From Gerris lacustris (lineage: Eukaryota; Arthropoda; Insecta; Hemiptera; Gerridae): DNA of 64,000 bases. The DNA lies in contig OX578276.1 of NCBI GenBank assembly GCA_951217055.1, positions 69,758,144-69,822,143 on the forward strand. The letters run 5' to 3'. Every line of letters begins with the position of its first letter. The stretch's first letter is position 1. Under the pieces are notes generated by a model. It was not told the DNA's origin. It made no database searches and saw nothing but the letters and a program-made list of their open reading frames with translations. The position numbers and the translations under genes are program-made. This document shows positions 3,061 through 61,552 of this stretch, one piece after another.

Positions 3061-4906
3061 TAAAAAGGTTATTTTTATCTTGTAATTATATACTTATAAA
3101 GACAACTAGATGTCCACTAATTTTGTTTCTATCGTAACATCCTGAATAACATAGTGTTTAAGTTCTTCTGCGTATTTTATAAAAAAAATAATGAAAAGTA
3201 CTTTTAGTAATTTACTTTTTTACATTTCTGAGGAGATCTTCTGCAGTAACACTATTTACTATCTCTATAATAAAATATTTTAATTTTATAAAAAAAAAAA
3301 AGAAAAAAACTACGACTACTTTTGAGTGGGAAATATCTGATAACTAAAATGGAATTATTAAATTAATAAATATAATATCCTATATATCTATTAGGGTATA
3401 TATAAATTTATATATTTATAATTAGAGAGAGAGAGATTGAATAAAAAGTAATCATATCATCGACAAAATCTTGGTTTTTTAGTCATTGATTATTTCGTTT
3501 GTTGAAAATTCATAATAAATTCTCTATAGAATAAATGAAGTTAAATTAATGAAGTCAATTATAAGAAATTTACAGAGTAAGAGGTATCACCCAGCAAATT
3601 GAGGAAATTCAATAATATATAAGTGTGTGAGTGATGTGCATTTAGGAGAGGGTTGGTTGCTCTTTCTAAGGATAAGTTGGACAGGCTTGGAAGTTTTCTA
3701 GAGGTCGAGGCCGGGTCTTCTTCACTGATGTATATATACGAATGAGGGATCAGCGGCTCTTAAACTAGACCGACACAGAACTTCACTTAGCTTCAGTATT
3801 GGGGCAATTCTCTCTATCTCGCCTCTTTACTCGAGGGCCCCGAGCAACACTGTGAATCTCAACCTTCTCTTCTTCTCCCTTGCCTAAACTCGGTGGAAAA
3901 TTACTAAACAAAAAGAAACGGATGACAACTCTGCCGAATTCTCTGAAAACGGTTGGCAACCAAAATTTAAAACGAATACAATGTCGATCCTGATTGAAAA
4001 GGGCCAATGCAAATAGTTCTTTTTATATCCTTTTCCTCTTTTGTTGGTGGAACATTCCAACTGATTTCAATATCAAATTGACCTTATTTATTCTCTGTTT
4101 CGCATGAGAAAGCAATCTGTATCATTCAGTGCAAAGCAAAACAATTTAAAATGAAATAAAATGCCTATATTGATTATTTGAAAATATGTTAATCACATTT
4201 TGCTATTACAATAAAATAAATGTAATGGATTTGTGATCAAATTAGCATAAGTTTCTGAACAATACAAAAAAATCATCGAAAAGAACGGCTTACTATGAAA
4301 GACCAGCATACTGTCGAAATTATTTTTAATGAGGAATCTTTTATTGCAATTCGTTAAACTTTATCCTTGAAATTCCAACGGCATAATATATTTAAGCGGT
4401 CGAATATGTAAAATTATCAAAATAATTAGTTATGATTGTTATATTGAAAATTTCAATGTTTATCTTAACAAGCCTCTCAATATAATTTAGGTCACCCAAG
4501 GTATCGTGGGGTAACTTACGACCTGCTTACGATCCTGCCACCTGACCTAAGGATTCGCCTGACATCTTAGGTAAATTCCAAACCCTGTCCATAAACCAAA
4601 GTATACAGGATTAATCCGTAAATTAGGTTCCAGAGGAACTTCCTCCATAATTTACATGAATTAAGTTGTCAAATTTCACACTGTAGATCATCTACCTAGA
4701 GCCCCTATCCTCTATAATGTCCCAGTAACTACCCAATCTTGTTTGAGTTTGAAGATAGCTTAATTTTATGTGTCAAGACTGACATGAAAATTTGCTAATT
4801 AGCGTGAAGCCAAGCTCTTCATTTTATATTTCATGCTTAATGTAATATAATGCGGGTTAAAAAAAAAACATGATTAATGGTCATATTCGCCAATTAAACA
4901 AAATAG
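3061..4906. other. No gene seen
   Basis: AT-rich sequence with a short GA run at 3426-3435. Two GC-richer patches at about 3640-3990 and 4480-4750 carry no recognisable motif. Open frames here are under 80 codons and resemble nothing known. Confidence 0.6.
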
Positions 4907-29910: not shown

Positions 29911-29940
29911 TTATTAAATTTAACCAAAATTACGCTTTAA

Positions 29941-30138
29941 CTTGTTAAAATATTCTACAAATTTGTGTGGCTCGTAGCTTCCTCACATTCTATTATTGGA
30001 CGAATGGTCACATGATATTTGGAACTTTTTCGACTCCACTGGGAATCGAAAAAGTTCCAAATATCATGTGACTATTTGTCCAATAATAGAATGTGAGGAA
30101 GCTATGAGCCACACAAATTGGTAGAATATTTTAATAAG
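29941..30138. repeat. 93-bp-arm hairpin made of two Rep1 inner ends
   Basis: The arms are 29941-30033 and 30046-30138 with a 12-bp loop (CTCCACTGGGAA); only a few mismatches are present. Each arm contains a Rep1 inner end (GAGGAAGCTATGAGCCACAC in the right arm). Between that end and the loop is TGTGACTATTTGTCCAATAA and CGAAAAAGTTCCAAATATCA. It would extrude as a cruciform or fold as a long RNA hairpin. Confidence 0.85.
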
Positions 30139-30189
30139 TTGAAGCTTAATAATTTAGGTTAAATTATTATCACATTAATAACAAAAACA

Positions 30190-37880: not shown

Positions 37881-37883
<3 letters not shown>

Positions 37884-37982
37884 TTTGCCAGCCAAGCAAG
37901 AATGGCGGTATGAGAGCACCCTCGTCTCTGATAAGTCCTATATCTGATCTTCTTGATGTAGTATAGGTCCAGAGTTGGGTGG

Positions 37983-38025
37983 GCATCGTCGGGCCCCTGA
38001 TGAGTCGGACGCGACGAAACGATGC
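37983..38025 (+). ncRNA. Hammerhead ribozyme (type-III-like permutation), copy 1
   Basis: All core parts are present in order. The stem III strand GCATCG plus U16.1 and C17 occupies 37983-37990, with predicted cleavage after 37990. Then come a six-base GGGCCC, the core CUGAUGA (37997-38003), and a stem II GTCG/CGAC with a GACG loop. GAAA (38016-38019) and CGATGC (38020-38025) follow. A15.1-U16.1 plus CGATGC/GCATCG make a 7-bp stem III. The odd part is stem I: GGGCCC is self-complementary but has no loop, so the monomer could form at most a strained two-pair stem. Two molecules could pair their GGGCCC and make a double hammerhead. Cleavage activity is inferred from the motif. Confidence 0.8.
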
Positions 38026-38090
38026 AGGACATGGCATAATGCCGAGCCAACATCTTAATGACGTCAAGTCTGAGGTTGGAACAGTTCCTA

Positions 38091-38112
38091 TGTGTCACGC
38101 TTGCGTGGCACA
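38091..38112 (+). ncRNA. Conserved hairpin downstream of the hammerhead
   Basis: TGTGTCACG and CGTGGCACA pair over 9 bp (one G-U) around CTTG. The same hairpin is at 49994-50015 in copy 2. Confidence 0.6.
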
Positions 38113-38134
38113 TCCCTTGGTGTCTCTCGCAAAT

Positions 38135-38136
<2 letters not shown>

Positions 38137-38201
<65 letters not shown>
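38137..38201. repeat. (TA)n array, right of hammerhead repeat
   Basis: About 63 bp of TA immediately after the ATTGTG end of the hammerhead repeat. Confidence 0.95.
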
Positions 38202-38539: not shown

Positions 38540-38861
<322 letters not shown>

Positions 38862-49781: not shown

Positions 49782-50048
49782 TGTTTTGCCAGCCAAGCAA
49801 GAATGGCGGTGTGAGAGCACGCTCGTCTCTGATAAAGCCTATTTACCTGATCTTCTTGAGTTGGTATAGGTCCAGAGTTGGGTGGGCATCGTCGGGCCCC
49901 TGATGAGTCGGACGCGACGAAACGATGCAGGACATGGCGTAATGCCAAGCCAACATCTTTGTGACATATAGTCTAATGTTGGAACCGTTCCTATGTGTCA
50001 CGCTTGCGTGGCACATCCCTTGGTGTCTCTCACTACACAAATTGTGTA
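49782..50048 (+). mobile_element. Hammerhead-bearing dispersed repeat, copy 2
   Basis: It matches 37881-38140 along its whole length with scattered differences. Examples are GGCGTAATGCCAAGCC against GGCATAATGCCGAGCC, and ACTACACAAATTGTGTA at the end. It lies inside the 3' UTR region of the minus-strand LINE, while its hammerhead is on the plus strand. No (TA)n touches this copy; the nearest array starts 95 bp downstream. Confidence 0.75.
49886..49928 (+). ncRNA. Hammerhead ribozyme, copy 2
   Basis: The 43 bases are identical to copy 1 while the flanks differ. Stem III is GCATCG(U)/(A)CGATGC, C17 is at 49893, GGGCCC follows, CUGAUGA is at 49900-49906, stem II is GTCG-GACG-CGAC, and GAAA is at 49919-49922. 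Retention of the full core in both copies suggests that cleavage mattered for the element, or that the copies are young. Confidence 0.8.
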
Positions 50049-50223: not shown

Positions 50224-50493
50224 TTATATATATTTTTATTTATAATTATAGTATATTTATAAATTTAATGTATGTCAGAGCAATATATTTCCTTCTTTAA
50301 GTTTTAAATAGTTCCAAAGATTTTATATTTTTAAGTTCATTAGGTAATTGATTGAATAGTATTAATGCGCAATAAGTCCAGTGTCTTTGGGCCATAGAGG
50401 TACTGAGTAATTACGTAATATTAGAGTAATTACTGAGTAATTACGTAATTACCTCAGATTAGACCTCTAGTAATTATTGCAAGGTCTATTCTT

Positions 50494-51094
50494 TTTACAA
50501 CGTTTTTATTAGCTTGCTTTCATATTTGTTTGTTTGTTTGTTTGTCCGGTACAAATCTGGCAATCGATTTCTAACTAACTTCCCGAATAGCTAGACATTT
50601 GAAACTTTTAGCATAGCTCAGAACATAATGACAATGCATTATTTCAATACTTTTAGCCATCTTTCAGCAGAATTTTATTGGATTTCAGCAAGTTTTGCTG
50701 TATGGAAAGTTAGTTCGGAAAAAATCCGCAAGTTATTTTATTTTATTTTTTTTTTGCCATATCCCATATTTACAATCTTCATTTTGACGAGTGTCAAATT
50801 TGTGATGATTATAAATAAGAGATAAACATTGAATGACAGCAAAACAGGAAATATATCGATTATATTTTTTTAAATATATCGATGGCACGGTTTAGATTTG
50901 GTGTTGGGGAGATCCGTTGTACAAAGATTTGTCCTTTTATAGGTTTAAGATCAGCTCTCTAGATGGTTGTCATTTATGTGAAGTAAATAAATTCGGAACT
51001 ATTTTTTTTTCACTAACATTATATATTATATAACAATAACAATTATATTATCAACATTACATACGATTCAACAGAAAATTTAAATACGTAGTAT
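50494..51094 (+). mobile_element. Rep2 TIR element, copy 2 (inserted in LINE)
   Basis: The ends are TTTACAACGTTTTTA and TAAATACGTAGTA. The interior matches Rep2 copy 1 but has only one of the two ATGGCACGGTTTAGATT blocks, giving 601 bp. It separates the reverse-transcriptase part of the LINE from its C-terminal part, so it inserted after the LINE. Confidence 0.75.
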
Positions 51095-54527: not shown

Positions 54528-54676
54528 TTTTTAATTTTTCTGTTGAATCATATGTAGTATTGATAATAATATACTTGTTATTGTTATAAATGTTAGTGAA
54601 AAATAATTAATATAAAAATGCCATTTTTCAAAACTGGTCTTATTTTTTTTTTTTTTTTTTTTTTATTTTTTTTTTT

Positions 54677-55085
54677 CTGTATTGTTCACCTTAGTTGTAT
54701 CTATGTGCAAAATTTGGGGAAGATTAAATGAAGGTAAGTGGTTCAACATTGGGGTAATAGGTCTGCGATGAAACTTGAAAAGCAAATAAATTTGACGCCA
54801 TTTTTTTTTTTTTTTTTTTGGTTTCTGTATTCTTCACCTTAGTTGTATCTATGTGCAAAATTTGGGGAAGATTGAATGACGGTAAGTGATGCAAAAATGG
54901 GGTAATAGGTGTGCGATGAAACTTGAAAAGCAAATAAATTTGACGCTATTTTTAATTTTTATTTTTGGTTTCTGTATTCTTCACCTTAGTTGTATCTATG
55001 TGCAAAATTTGGGAAAGATTGAATGACGGTAAGTCGTTCAAAATTGGGGTAATAGGTGTGCGATGAAACTTACAAAGCAAAGTAA
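54677..55085 (+). repeat. Tandem repeat, ~147-bp period, 2.8 copies
   Basis: CTGTATT starts at 54677, 54825 and 54972. Each copy contains CACCTTAGTTGTATCTATGT, GCAAAATTTGGG, GGGGTAATAGGT and GATGAAACTT. A variable T-run separates copies. The last copy ends where the Rep2 sequence resumes. Confidence 0.85.
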
Positions 55086-57046: not shown

Positions 57047-58615
57047 GTTTATAATAATAATAATAATAATAATAAAACTTTATTGAATAAACATATAAAT
57101 ATTAATAAATTACATAAATAAATATAAATAATTTTCGGGTGACTAATACTCCCAGTTTCGAGCTTCTAATAAGCTCTTTCCTTGGGGAAATAATAGTAAT
57201 TTAGAGCATTAGTTTATGTTTATGTGACAACTAGTAAGAGTTAGGGAAAAAAGTTACAACAAAAACCATAGACACAAAGTTTCAAACAGTGATTAAAATC
57301 TTATGACTAGATAAAAATATACAGGAAAACAAAACAAAAACAAGATAAATAAATAGCATACGTTTAATAATAACATTAAATATTTGGTAACTAGGTACTG
57401 ATTAAATAAAATTACTAGATAATTTTAACTTTGGACTAGATTATTATTTATTTTTACTGAGGTGTTTTATAGCAAAATATGTTTCAGTCTTTTATGTTTG
57501 TACTTTTTTTATTTTAATTTCAAGGTGTTAAGGTCGTAATTACCTATTTCATTTATTAAAGGATTGATGTCACTATTTCGACAACTTTCAAAAAATATTT
57601 TGTAAGATTTATAGTAATTTGTTTTATATATGGAATCTTGAGAGTTGTGTGCATTTCTGTTATTCTAGTGTATCGATTGTAATTTCCTGTGATGCGACAA
57701 CATTTATTCTGAAAGACTTGAAGTTATTTAAAATTTGAATCGGACATGGAACTCCAGACTGGGCAAGCGTATAATAAAATCGGTCTAATAAACTGCTTAT
57801 AAATCAGTAACTTGTTGTTTTTATTTAGTGACGACCTAGTATTAAAGACGGGATATAAGCTGAAAAGGGTGGAATTTACTTTATTAATTTGAGATTTAGT
57901 GTGGCAAGTGAAATTTAGTTTACTGTCGAGAATAAGGCCTAAATATTTTAAACTGTCCGTCCATTCGATTCGGGACTCACCTAAACTTAAAGCATTTGGA
58001 AGCCTGGGTCGACGCTTGGTAAACATTATCGCCTCTGTTTTTGAAGGATTTAATTTATTACGCCAATTATTAAAGTATCGTTTTATTCGGAGGAATCCAT
58101 TAGTTAGTCTGTTAACAATCGTATCCAGTCTCCAAGAGCTTGTATAGAGAGCTGTGTCATCAGCGAATACTGATAACTCGACGTCTGCGATTTTAGGCAT
58201 TCCAGACATAAGGATATTAAATAACAAGGGTCCTAAAATTGATCCTGGGGGTACTCCAGCTGAAACTGAGTAGACTTTTGAATTGCTTAGCTGGTTTGAA
58301 ACAAAAAAAGTTCGTTTCTTGAAATAAGATATAAGTACTAATATTAAATATCTGGGTAGGTCTAATTGTATAATTAGTTTAAAAATTAATCCGTTATGCC
58401 ATACGCAATCGAAAGCCTTTTCGACATCAAGAACTATCATACCAGTAAACTTGTTCAGGTTGAATTTATCAGTGACATAATCAGTTAAGCGAGCCAGTTG
58501 TGTGACGGCGGAATGACCCGGCGCCGGCGGAGAATTTTGTTTCTCCTCTCTTATAAGTATTGAATAGACGACATTATTTAATATATTTACAAATTTTTTT
58601 TTACAAATTTTTCTT
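57047..58615 (-). mobile_element. 5'-truncated Jockey-group LINE
   Basis: On the minus strand it begins with an open frame at about 58615, carries the reverse-transcriptase region, reaches a natural-looking ORF end at about 57509, and then has a ~430-bp 3' UTR. The 3' end reads TTCAATAAAG then TTTTATTATTATTATTA: an AATAAA signal followed by a (TTA)n tail (57051-57075), as in many arthropod LINEs. It is truncated upstream of RT motif 3. No target duplication was resolved. Confidence 0.75.
57509..58615 (-). pseudogene. LINE ORF2 reverse transcriptase (C-terminal two thirds of RT), inactivated
   Basis: The longest open stretch with an ATG is 58440-57724 (238 codons), but the frame continues upstream as PGHSAVTQLARLTDYVTDKF. 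RT blocks in order are MIVLDVEKAFDCVWH (motif A, catalytic D), AGVPPGSILGPLLFN (motif B, usually GVPQGS, here GVPPGS), LSVFADDTALY (motif C, catalytic DD), LNPSKTEAIMF (motif D), SLKYLGLILDSKLNF (motif E) and LLYACPVWS. The stop at 57724 falls within SNFK*LQVFQNKCCRI and looks like a nonsense change. One frameshift later the frame ends with DINPLINEIGNYDLNTLKLK and a stop at 57509-57511. All catalytic aspartates remain. The endonuclease domain is absent. Confidence 0.8.
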
Positions 58616-59775: not shown

Positions 59776-59982
59776 AATTCAATTTTTTTATTTTTTTAAG
59801 TTTTTGGTAGTTTTCATACTACGGAAAGTTAAATTTTAATTTAAATCAAATTATAATTATTATTAACTACGGGAAACAGACAGTGAAAAATACACTCCTG
59901 TGCCGGGATTTGAACCACGGGCCTCTATATTTCCAGTATAGCGCTCTTCCATCTAAGCTACGCAGGAGAATGATTTTTCACT
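59776..59982. repeat. Direct repeat, left copy, with tRNA-like unit
   Basis: These 207 bp are virtually identical to 60134-60340 (offset 358). They carry one arm of the inverted repeat (TAACTACGGGAAACAGACAG) and the tRNA-like sequence. After TTTTTCACT the copy continues with unrelated DNA, so its right arm is missing. Confidence 0.9.
59896..59967 (-). pseudogene. tRNA-like sequence, copy 1 (anticodon position GGA)
   Basis: On the minus strand the parts are acceptor TCCTGCG/CACAGGA (one mismatch), a D arm with A box TAGCTTAGATGG, anticodon arm CTATA-CTGGAAA-TATAG, variable loop AGGCC, and a T arm with B box GGTTCAAATCC. GGA would read serine codons, but the long variable arm of tRNA-Ser is absent and the T stem has two mismatches. 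It is therefore a tRNA-like or SINE-like Pol III unit rather than a working tRNA. Confidence 0.65.
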
Positions 59983-60133: not shown

Positions 60134-60387
60134 AATTCAATTTTTTTATTTTTTTAAGTTTTTGGTAGTTTTCATACTACGGAAAGTTAAATTTTAATTT
60201 AAATCAAATTATAATTATTATTAACTACGGGAAACAGACAGTGAAAAATACACTCCTGTGCCGGGATTTGAACCACGGGCCTCTATATTTCCAGTATAGC
60301 GCTCTTCCATCTAAGCTACGCAGGAGAATGATTTTTCACTGTCTGTTTCCCGTAGTTAATAATAATTATAATTTGATTTAAATTAAA
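60134..60387. mobile_element. Foldback element enclosing a tRNA-like unit
   Basis: A 57-bp perfect inverted repeat (60193-60249 and 60331-60387; words TTTAATTTAAATCAAATTAT, AACTACGGGAAACAGACAGT, GAAAAAT) encloses 81 bp that contain the tRNA-like sequence. The left part (60134-60340) duplicates 59776-59982. A transcript from either strand would fold into one long hairpin with a cloverleaf at its tip. Confidence 0.85.
60254..60325 (-). pseudogene. tRNA-like sequence, copy 2 (in the foldback)
   Basis: This is identical in sequence and structure to the copy at 59896. The A box is at 60307-60318 and the B box at 60264-60274, both on the minus strand with ordinary tRNA spacing. No TTTT terminator follows within the inverted arm (GTGTATTTTTCACTGTC gives five T on the minus strand just past the acceptor, a possible weak terminator). 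Pol III transcription is plausible but unproven. Confidence 0.65.
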
Positions 60388-60801: not shown

Positions 60802-61552
60802 AAGGAATAAAACTAACTCTCTCTCCATGTACATTGAAATGACTTTAATATCAAAGCAGCTTTCAGCCTTCAAAAGGCCGTCATCAGTGCCTACGAACAA
60901 ACAAGAAAGGTCGAACTAAGCAAAAACTCCCATAACAATTAAAACTAACAAACATTAAGTCGAGTGAAGGGGTCTTCATCACTGATAAAGACAATGGCTT
61001 TAATTCCTGATCGAATCAGTCTAACTTCGATATCCGACATGAAGTAGACTCATCTCAATAAATATTTTTATTAATGTAACTTATTTTCTTCCGCGCAGTA
61101 GGTAGGCTTTCTTATATTAACTAATTTATGTTACATTTGTATTTATTCCCATTTATTCATTTTTCGCATTTATTATTGCATTTCGTAATTTTATTTATTT
61201 AATTAATTGGTTTTTATTGTCTCATTTATTATTTTAGTTTTATTAATTTATTTATACGCACTTATATAATAATTTTTTTAATTTAACAGATGTAAAAAAA
61301 CAACATTTTTTATACGTTTATTTATTTTAGTTATTTGATCTTTTTGTTTTTGTACAATCTTTTGCCATGTTAATTGCCTATTTTAATTTGTTAATCGTTT
61401 AATTTTTTTAATTATTGTTTCAGTTTTTGCTTACTTTAAAATTTCCTGTTTGTTCTTAGGCACTGATGATAGCCTTTTAAAGACAGAAAGATGCTTTGTT
61501 GTTAAAATAATTACAATTTTACCTGGAGAGTCAGTTTGTGTAATTCCTTTAA
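60802..61552. mobile_element. Inverted-repeat element with CTGATGA / GAAAG arms
   Basis: The left arm 60802-60909 (AGCAGCTTTCAGCCTTCAAA, AGGCCGTCATCAGTGCCTAC, GAACAAACAAGAAAGG) is inverted at 61442-61552 (TTCCTGTTTGTTCTTAGGCA, CTGATGATAGCCTTTTAAAG, ACAGAAAGATGCTTTG). Arms are about 75 percent alike by eye. The hairpin-forming CTGATGA-GGCCTT-TTG-AAGGCT-GAAA order resembles a hammerhead core, but one extra base precedes stem II and no cleavage strand was found. Such palindromes also mark Penelope-like element ends. Confidence 0.5.

Follow-up and report, generated by a model that had tools for sequence, protein, structure and literature searches.

What can a hammerhead ribozyme do when its stem I is a bare palindrome with no loop? 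This question is raised by a 43-base motif in the water strider Gerris lacustris, which was found in a 64,000-nucleotide stretch of genomic DNA (the window). Is the motif a ribozyme at all? If it is, does it act as one RNA or as two? Here, the motif, the repeat that carries it and the predicted folding of one and of two copies are discussed and compared with hammerheads already described.

The motif and its resemblance to hammerheads

The original prediction described the parts of a type III hammerhead with a 7-bp stem III and a loopless, palindromic GGGCCC where stem I is expected, and both the sequence and the positions given for it were correct (Table 1). The motif reads GCATCGTC-GGGCCC-CTGATGA-GTCGGACGCGAC-GAAA-CGATGC, which is the type III order, and a second 43-mer with the same letters lies on the same strand. 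All seven pairs of stem III, the U37989-A38019 pair included, and all four pairs of stem II are Watson-Crick, so that the core and helices II and III are perfect in both copies. The core agrees with the consensus (CUGANGA, GAA, the A15.1-U16.1 pair and an H17 that is not G), and an open stem III of 7 bp is combined with a stem II of 4 bp in type III order. Cleavage is predicted after C37990, since the known hammerhead mechanism places the cut 3' of H17. A stem I hairpin within one molecule is absent, the six nucleotides GGGCCC allowing one pair at most. By inspection, the motif is without a loop I and hence without a loop I/loop II tertiary contact.

Table 1. Positions of the hammerhead motif, its parts and its host repeat within the window.
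Feature	Position	Strand	Remarks
Repeat copy 1, SINE-like, dispersed	37881..38140	+	260 bp; (TA)n on both sides
Block without inter-copy difference	37961..38035	+	75 columns; covers the motif
Hammerhead motif, copy 1	37983..38025	+	type III order; Rfam and folding
Stem III, 5' strand GCATCGT	37983..37989	+	U16.1 is the final base
Competing hairpin UCGUCGG-GCCC-CUGAUGA	37986..38003	+	-6.5 kcal/mol alone; buries core box; common to both copies
H17 (C), predicted cleavage 3' of C	37990 (copy 2: 49893)	+	position from hammerhead mechanism
GGGCCC in the place of stem I	37991..37996 (copy 2: 49894-49899)	+	palindrome, loopless
Core box CUGAUGA	37997..38003	+	
Stem-loop II GTCG-GACG-CGAC	38004..38015	+	4 bp, loop GACG
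Core box GAA	38016..38018	+	A15.1 (38019) pairs with U 37989
Stem III, 3' strand ACGATGC	38019..38025	+	A + CGATGC
Repeat 3' hairpin	38090..38113	+	10 bp; inside second clean block, 44 columns
Repeat copy 2	49782..50048	+	267 bp; same strand as copy 1
Hammerhead motif, copy 2	49886..49928	+	identical to copy 1 motif

In a permissive scan, the Rfam model Hammerhead_3 (RF00008) was aligned to each copy over model positions 1-54 of 54 with a score of 42.6 bits. The E-value was 2.7e-6 per copy over 28,001 bases, and 5.9e-8 for copy 1 over 601 bases. In the alignment of copy 1, the stem I region is short of seven consensus positions, and four positions of loop II are deleted. The default Rfam scan of the window listed no hammerhead because the curated gathering score, 48.5 bits, is higher than this. 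The original prediction had agreed to be judged by this threshold, and both copies formally fall short of it; the E-value, on the other side, makes a chance match hard to defend. The motif should not be classed as an ordinary type III hammerhead, since the stem I hairpin and the loop contact are absent and the score is under the gathering score.

Could the resemblance have arisen by chance inside the repeat? That the score stays under the RF00008 gathering score would agree with such an origin. A descriptor that required at least 7 pairs in stem III and at least 4 in stem II was matched twice in the window and never in 200 first-order Markov windows. Looser descriptors gave Markov means of 0.005 per window (at least 6 and at least 4 pairs) and 0.075 (at least 5 and at least 3). 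Together with the E-value and the identity of the motif in two copies, which do not count as independent of each other, the controls leave chance as a barely credible account of the locus. The motif is real and its origin by chance is unlikely. The palindrome alone is weak evidence, as 64 of the 4096 possible hexamers are perfect palindromes. GGGCCC occurs eight times in the window, which is 31% GC, and two of these occurrences belong to the motif copies. The others are found at 3835, 11443, 18955, 39223, 46575 and 53980, in contexts that are unrelated by eye.

When positions 1-37000 and 36000-64000 were scanned permissively with Rfam (E up to 0.5), no further convincing hammerhead copies came up. 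A blastn search across the window returned no third convincing copy, the best other match being 30 bases at an E-value of 0.045. An inverted pair of CTGATGA-hairpin-GAAA strings, about 600 bases apart, is present at 60861-60887 (minus strand) and 61463-61489 (plus strand). The pair is superficially hammerhead-like; G and not C follows the GAAA, and no Rfam hammerhead match was obtained there.

Other architectures were considered for the letters of the repeat. A type I reading inside one repeat was rejected on inspection, because another UH site that has a stem III hairpin was not seen downstream. A discontinuous stem I with distant partners was rejected as well, the distance from the cleavage site to CUGAUGA being six bases only. 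Near 37929, the repeat contains another core (CUGAUAA), which was discarded because, on inspection, GAAA is missing after its hairpin.

The repeat that carries the motif

The original prediction overlooked that the motif is part of a dispersed repeat. The two copies are identical at 241 of 267 columns, and the 26 differing columns correspond to 21 events. Both repeat ends are common to the two copies, as in the short dispersed copies with fixed ends that characterize SINEs, and the repeat has a GC content of 51% against 31% for the window. Tandem arrays of the repeat were not found within the window, where 11,903 bases separate one predicted cleavage site from the other. No target site duplication was evident by eye in the flanks, which in copy 1 consist of (TA)n. 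Around copy 1, Rfam gave 23 weak matches with E-values of up to 10, and none of them was to a tRNA, 5S or 7SL RNA. The term SINE-like is used here as a description of form only.

The differences between the copies are not spread evenly, and the motif lies in the longer of the blocks listed in Table 1. When the differences were shuffled (permutation), a clean stretch of 43 columns was obtained with P 0.020 and a clean run of 75 columns with P 0.012. The motif is conserved, but it is not the sole conserved part of the repeat, and two copies cannot firmly separate selection from chance. Covariation is absent, there being just two copies with identical motif letters.

How might a loopless stem I have come about? 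One serious possibility is that the source element had an ancestral stem I of the GGGC...GCCC type whose loop was deleted, and that the repeat then spread with an inactive or near-inactive ribozyme. A deletion of this kind would leave the palindrome automatically, and an uncleaved transcript would presumably suit a retroposon. The loopless state is common to both copies and is therefore older than their split. Against such a fossil stands the state of the rest of the motif. Neither copy has any decay in the core or the helices despite the 26 of 267 differing columns (P about 0.02), and no looped copy was found within the window.

The relatives of the repeat were searched for in prokaryote, viral, phage and plasmid collections, which say little on eukaryotic repeats. 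Exact pieces of the repeat had 0 matches in the viral contig and prokaryote genome contig collections, and blastn with copy 2 as the query gave no match among phages and plasmids. The architecture was also searched for by itself. A scan for a six-base linker gave at least 120 viral stretches; none of the 120 matches listed combined a 3-of-3 palindrome with a stem III of at least 5 and a stem II of at least 4 pairs, wobble pairs being allowed. A linker made of G and C only was found at 2 viral loci (L023, one of these, is also among the 120 listed) and 13 prokaryote loci, and 0 of these 15 had all three features. Rfam at the gathering score gave no hammerhead on 14 of the 120 listed viral loci.

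The window is rich in other repeats. Dispersed repeats of about 500 bp with 91-95% identity pair 2063-2578 with 50493-51037 and 441-945 with 41767-41272, and a tandem repeat with a period of 148 and 2.9 copies is located at 54653-55081. Just downstream of repeat copy 1, a long palindromic repeat (38693-38848) lies between two (TA)n arrays; miRNA precursor families match both of its strands below threshold, as would be expected if it were a MITE-like hairpin. The match to MIR6140 at 29932-30147 (84.3 bits, gathering 140) is perhaps a MITE-like hairpin too. A 207-bp unit occurs twice with 100% identity, at 59776-59982 and 60134-60340. Each unit holds a 73-nt tRNA-like gene on the minus strand that is read as tRNA-Ser(GGA) and is without a long variable arm, which serine tRNAs usually have. 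At 57724-58614 (minus strand) lies a reverse transcriptase fragment (Pfam RVT_1 only, E 1.6e-20), which we take to be probably from a non-LTR retrotransposon, its open reading frame looking jockey-like and arthropod-like.

Folding of one copy and of two

Can one RNA fold into the hammerhead? In ViennaRNA, which does not score the magnesium-bound core and in which gaps of a few kcal/mol are not decisive, the minimum free energy (MFE) structure of the 43-mer is not the hammerhead (-13.7 kcal/mol versus -11.4 for stems II and III). In the monomer, stem I can contain at most one G-C pair, G37991-C37996 over GGCC, and in the 43-mer this pair costs 2.2 kcal/mol relative to no stem I. The forced cis hammerhead without stem I lies above the MFE by 2.3 kcal/mol in the 43-mer, 4.9 in copy 1 and 2.7 in copy 2. 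In the full repeat, stem III is formed in cis with a probability of about 0.02 in copy 1 and 0.19-0.29 in copy 2 (first six pairs). A competing hairpin, also overlooked by the original prediction, has a probability of 0.50-0.57 in the full-length fold of copy 1 and 0.32-0.40 in that of copy 2. Such a hairpin would be finished before stems II and III are transcribed. A single RNA that cannot make stem I, with a core that is buried in the full-length folds, is also what would be expected had the source element lost its loop and with it most or all activity.

A further possibility is slow cleavage by the monomer at high magnesium, in which helix I would consist of one pair that closes GGCC, or transiently of two pairs. 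We regard this as improbable. Stems II and III are complete and an N1.1-N2.1 pair is possible over a four-base loop; natural hammerheads with a very short stem II are reported in passages of PMC3088659. The forced cis fold and the single pair both carry the energetic costs given above, however, and a loop-loop contact is impossible. In addition, the passages on hammerheads that the literature search returned describe no natural hammerhead whose stem I is loopless.

What can two copies do? For two isolated 43-mers, the MFE structure is the complete double hammerhead, at -39.1 kcal/mol versus -27.4 for two monomers (2 x -13.7). It contains six GGGCCC/GGGCCC pairs, both stems II and, between the strands, both stems III, with 0 crossing pairs. 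The double hammerhead is topologically and energetically feasible for the isolated motif. The exchange of stem III is obligatory because the G37991 and C37996 of each strand sit at opposite ends of the shared helix. By the same reasoning, a kissing dimer with both stems III in cis was rejected, as its core cannot close. The two-copy form would be a domain-swapped dimer and not the product of dimerization via stem I alone. The original prediction of a dimer with a shared 6-bp stem I is borne out in its topology and in the energy of the bare motif, and it has to be amended in that the stems III are exchanged too.

The dimer claim is weaker in the context of the full repeat. In a full-length tandem, the forced double hammerhead costs 5.3 (copy 1) and 1.2 (copy 2) kcal/mol relative to the tandem MFE. 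The cost is 8.7 kcal/mol in an 84-base fragment and 2.2 when two bare 43-mers are fused; for a 53-base fragment (5 flanking bases per side) it is 0.0, the tandem MFE being equal to the double-hammerhead energy. The probability of the dimer stem I pairs in the full-length tandem is 0.002 for copy 1 and 0.012 for copy 2, and it is 0.002 for two separate copy 1 strands. In a two-strand model of 84 bases, the probability goes up to 0.075 for the stem I pairs and is 0.000 for the exchanged stems III. Two separate full-length strands have unforced MFEs of -191.5 and -197.1, and for copy 1 their pair probabilities are without the double hammerhead. A short self-complementary helix able to give a dimeric hammerhead is found in the bare 43-mers, then, and is not preferred at full length.

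The reading that we favor, if tentatively, is that of a hammerhead-like element in a SINE-like repeat that would cleave poorly or not at all as a single RNA and whose activity, if there is any, would be that of a domain-swapped dimer. A dispersed repeat of about 260 bp would carry, in the middle of the element, a hammerhead of type III order whose helix I has been reduced to the palindrome GGGCCC. The partners would be two separate transcripts, or two copies on one multimeric transcript, which would swap strands and build a double hammerhead in which a single 6-bp helix I is shared and both 7-bp helices III are exchanged. Cuts would follow C37990 and its counterpart at 49893, and cleavage would put 5'-OH RNA ends at GGGCCCCUGAUGA. 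The data show the sequence, its symmetry, its conservation in the two copies and the feasibility of the dimer for the bare motif, whereas transcription of the repeat, dimer formation in the cell and cleavage are inferred. The spread of a repeat with an inactive or near-inactive, loop-deleted ribozyme is the main rival of the dimer and comes close behind it.

Might the RNA of the repeat instead cut other RNAs with GCATCGTC-GGGCCC-like sites? According to passages of PMC6155905, most trans-cleaving hammerhead constructs are of type III without a helix I loop, which is the form seen here. The sole matching target that was seen is the repeat itself, however, and trans cleavage is hence the same as the dimer model. 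As a separate explanation it is very unlikely.

Comparison with known systems

The motif resembles the type III hammerheads of RF00008 (sTRSV, plant retrozymes) in the order of its boxes, the core nucleotides, the open stem III and the short stem II, and differs from them in being without a stem I hairpin and loop I and in scoring under the gathering score. Other box orders of the hammerhead exist, type III being the order SCG, as here (passages of PMC10085705). Type III motifs are described in parts of PMC6155905 as cleaving well as monomers. In a construct designed from sTRSV, a type III hammerhead with a discontinuous stem 1 still cleaves in trans at low magnesium because the loop contact is kept, and minimal ribozymes without the loop contact need much more magnesium (passages of PMC1199579).

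How does the repeat compare with mobile elements that carry hammerheads? Plant retrozymes are treated in passages of PMC4918200. In plant LTR retrozymes, type III hammerheads lie in direct repeats of about 350 bp that are 600-1000 bp apart, whereas the copies here are 11.9 kb apart. Metazoan non-LTR retrozymes are similar in being short non-coding units (a few hundred bp) that contain a hammerhead, and the size of the repeat fits their range of 150-450 bp. According to passages of PMC7229834 and PMC7761336, these retrozymes are of type I, in tandem and with a GC content below 45-50%; the repeat described here differs in its type III order, in being present in the window as single copies and in its GC content of 0.51. 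The Schistosoma Sm-alpha SINE-like repeat is likewise a short repeat with an internal hammerhead; by its description in passages of PMC8490949, to which the comparison is limited, its hammerhead is of type I, unlike the one here.

Does the spread of a repeat need the type I architecture? Passages of PMC3088659 state that the vast majority of eukaryotic repeat-associated hammerheads are of type I and ask whether propagation depends on it. A dispersed repeat with a motif of type III order is relevant to this question. The type III order alone is not new, since passages of PMC7761336, which place metazoan retrozymes in type I and in tandem, already mention insect elements with type III hammerheads, without details.

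Among hammerheads of type I, those with a weak helix III (Penelope-like, newt, axolotl, Aedes, ASBVd) act, or are suggested to act, as double hammerheads. These resemble the motif in having a helix that is too short in the monomer and is closed by dimer pairing. Dimeric Penelope-like hammerheads have reportedly been treated by Lunse et al. in 2017. In the type I hammerheads, the short helix is helix III, whereas the motif has a short helix I, type III order and a 7-bp stem III.

Precedents for a dimer are found in passages of PMC3088659, PMC6155905, PMC7229834 and PMC6466107, which describe monomer-weak animal and viroid hammerheads whose working form is, or has been proposed to be, a double hammerhead closed by a palindromic stem III. 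For instance, 4 of 18 hammerheads tested in PMC3088659 were inactive, and dimers were perhaps needed for two of these, from Aedes and Nematostella; a palindromic stem/loop III is described there in Figure S8. Axolotl type I motifs cut better as dimeric constructs (PMC7229834, in part), and the type I motifs of newt and ASBVd use an elongated helix III (PMC6155905, in part). By analogy, the domain-swapped dimer would be like the double hammerheads of newt and ASBVd, except that helices I and III trade places. Double hammerheads go with a short stem III and, in eukaryotes, with tandem arrangement, according to passages of PMC6466107; the repeat is present in the window as two single copies. No paper on dimerization via helix I stood out in the open-licence literature, judged by titles and the starts of abstracts, and a search with sequence strings gave 0 papers.

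A bolder and on balance unlikely extension of the dimer reading would be a natural ribozyme that is built only from two RNAs, by way of a palindromic helix I held in common and of exchanged helices III. Its cleavage would be tied to the concentration of the transcript or to a read-through RNA with two copies, and it could serve as a brake on the copy number or the expression of a retroposon. If this were true, either outer helix of the hammerhead could be passed to a partner molecule, and a simple RNA could sense the amount of its own transcript. The motif would then be the helix I counterpart of the double hammerhead built on helix III.
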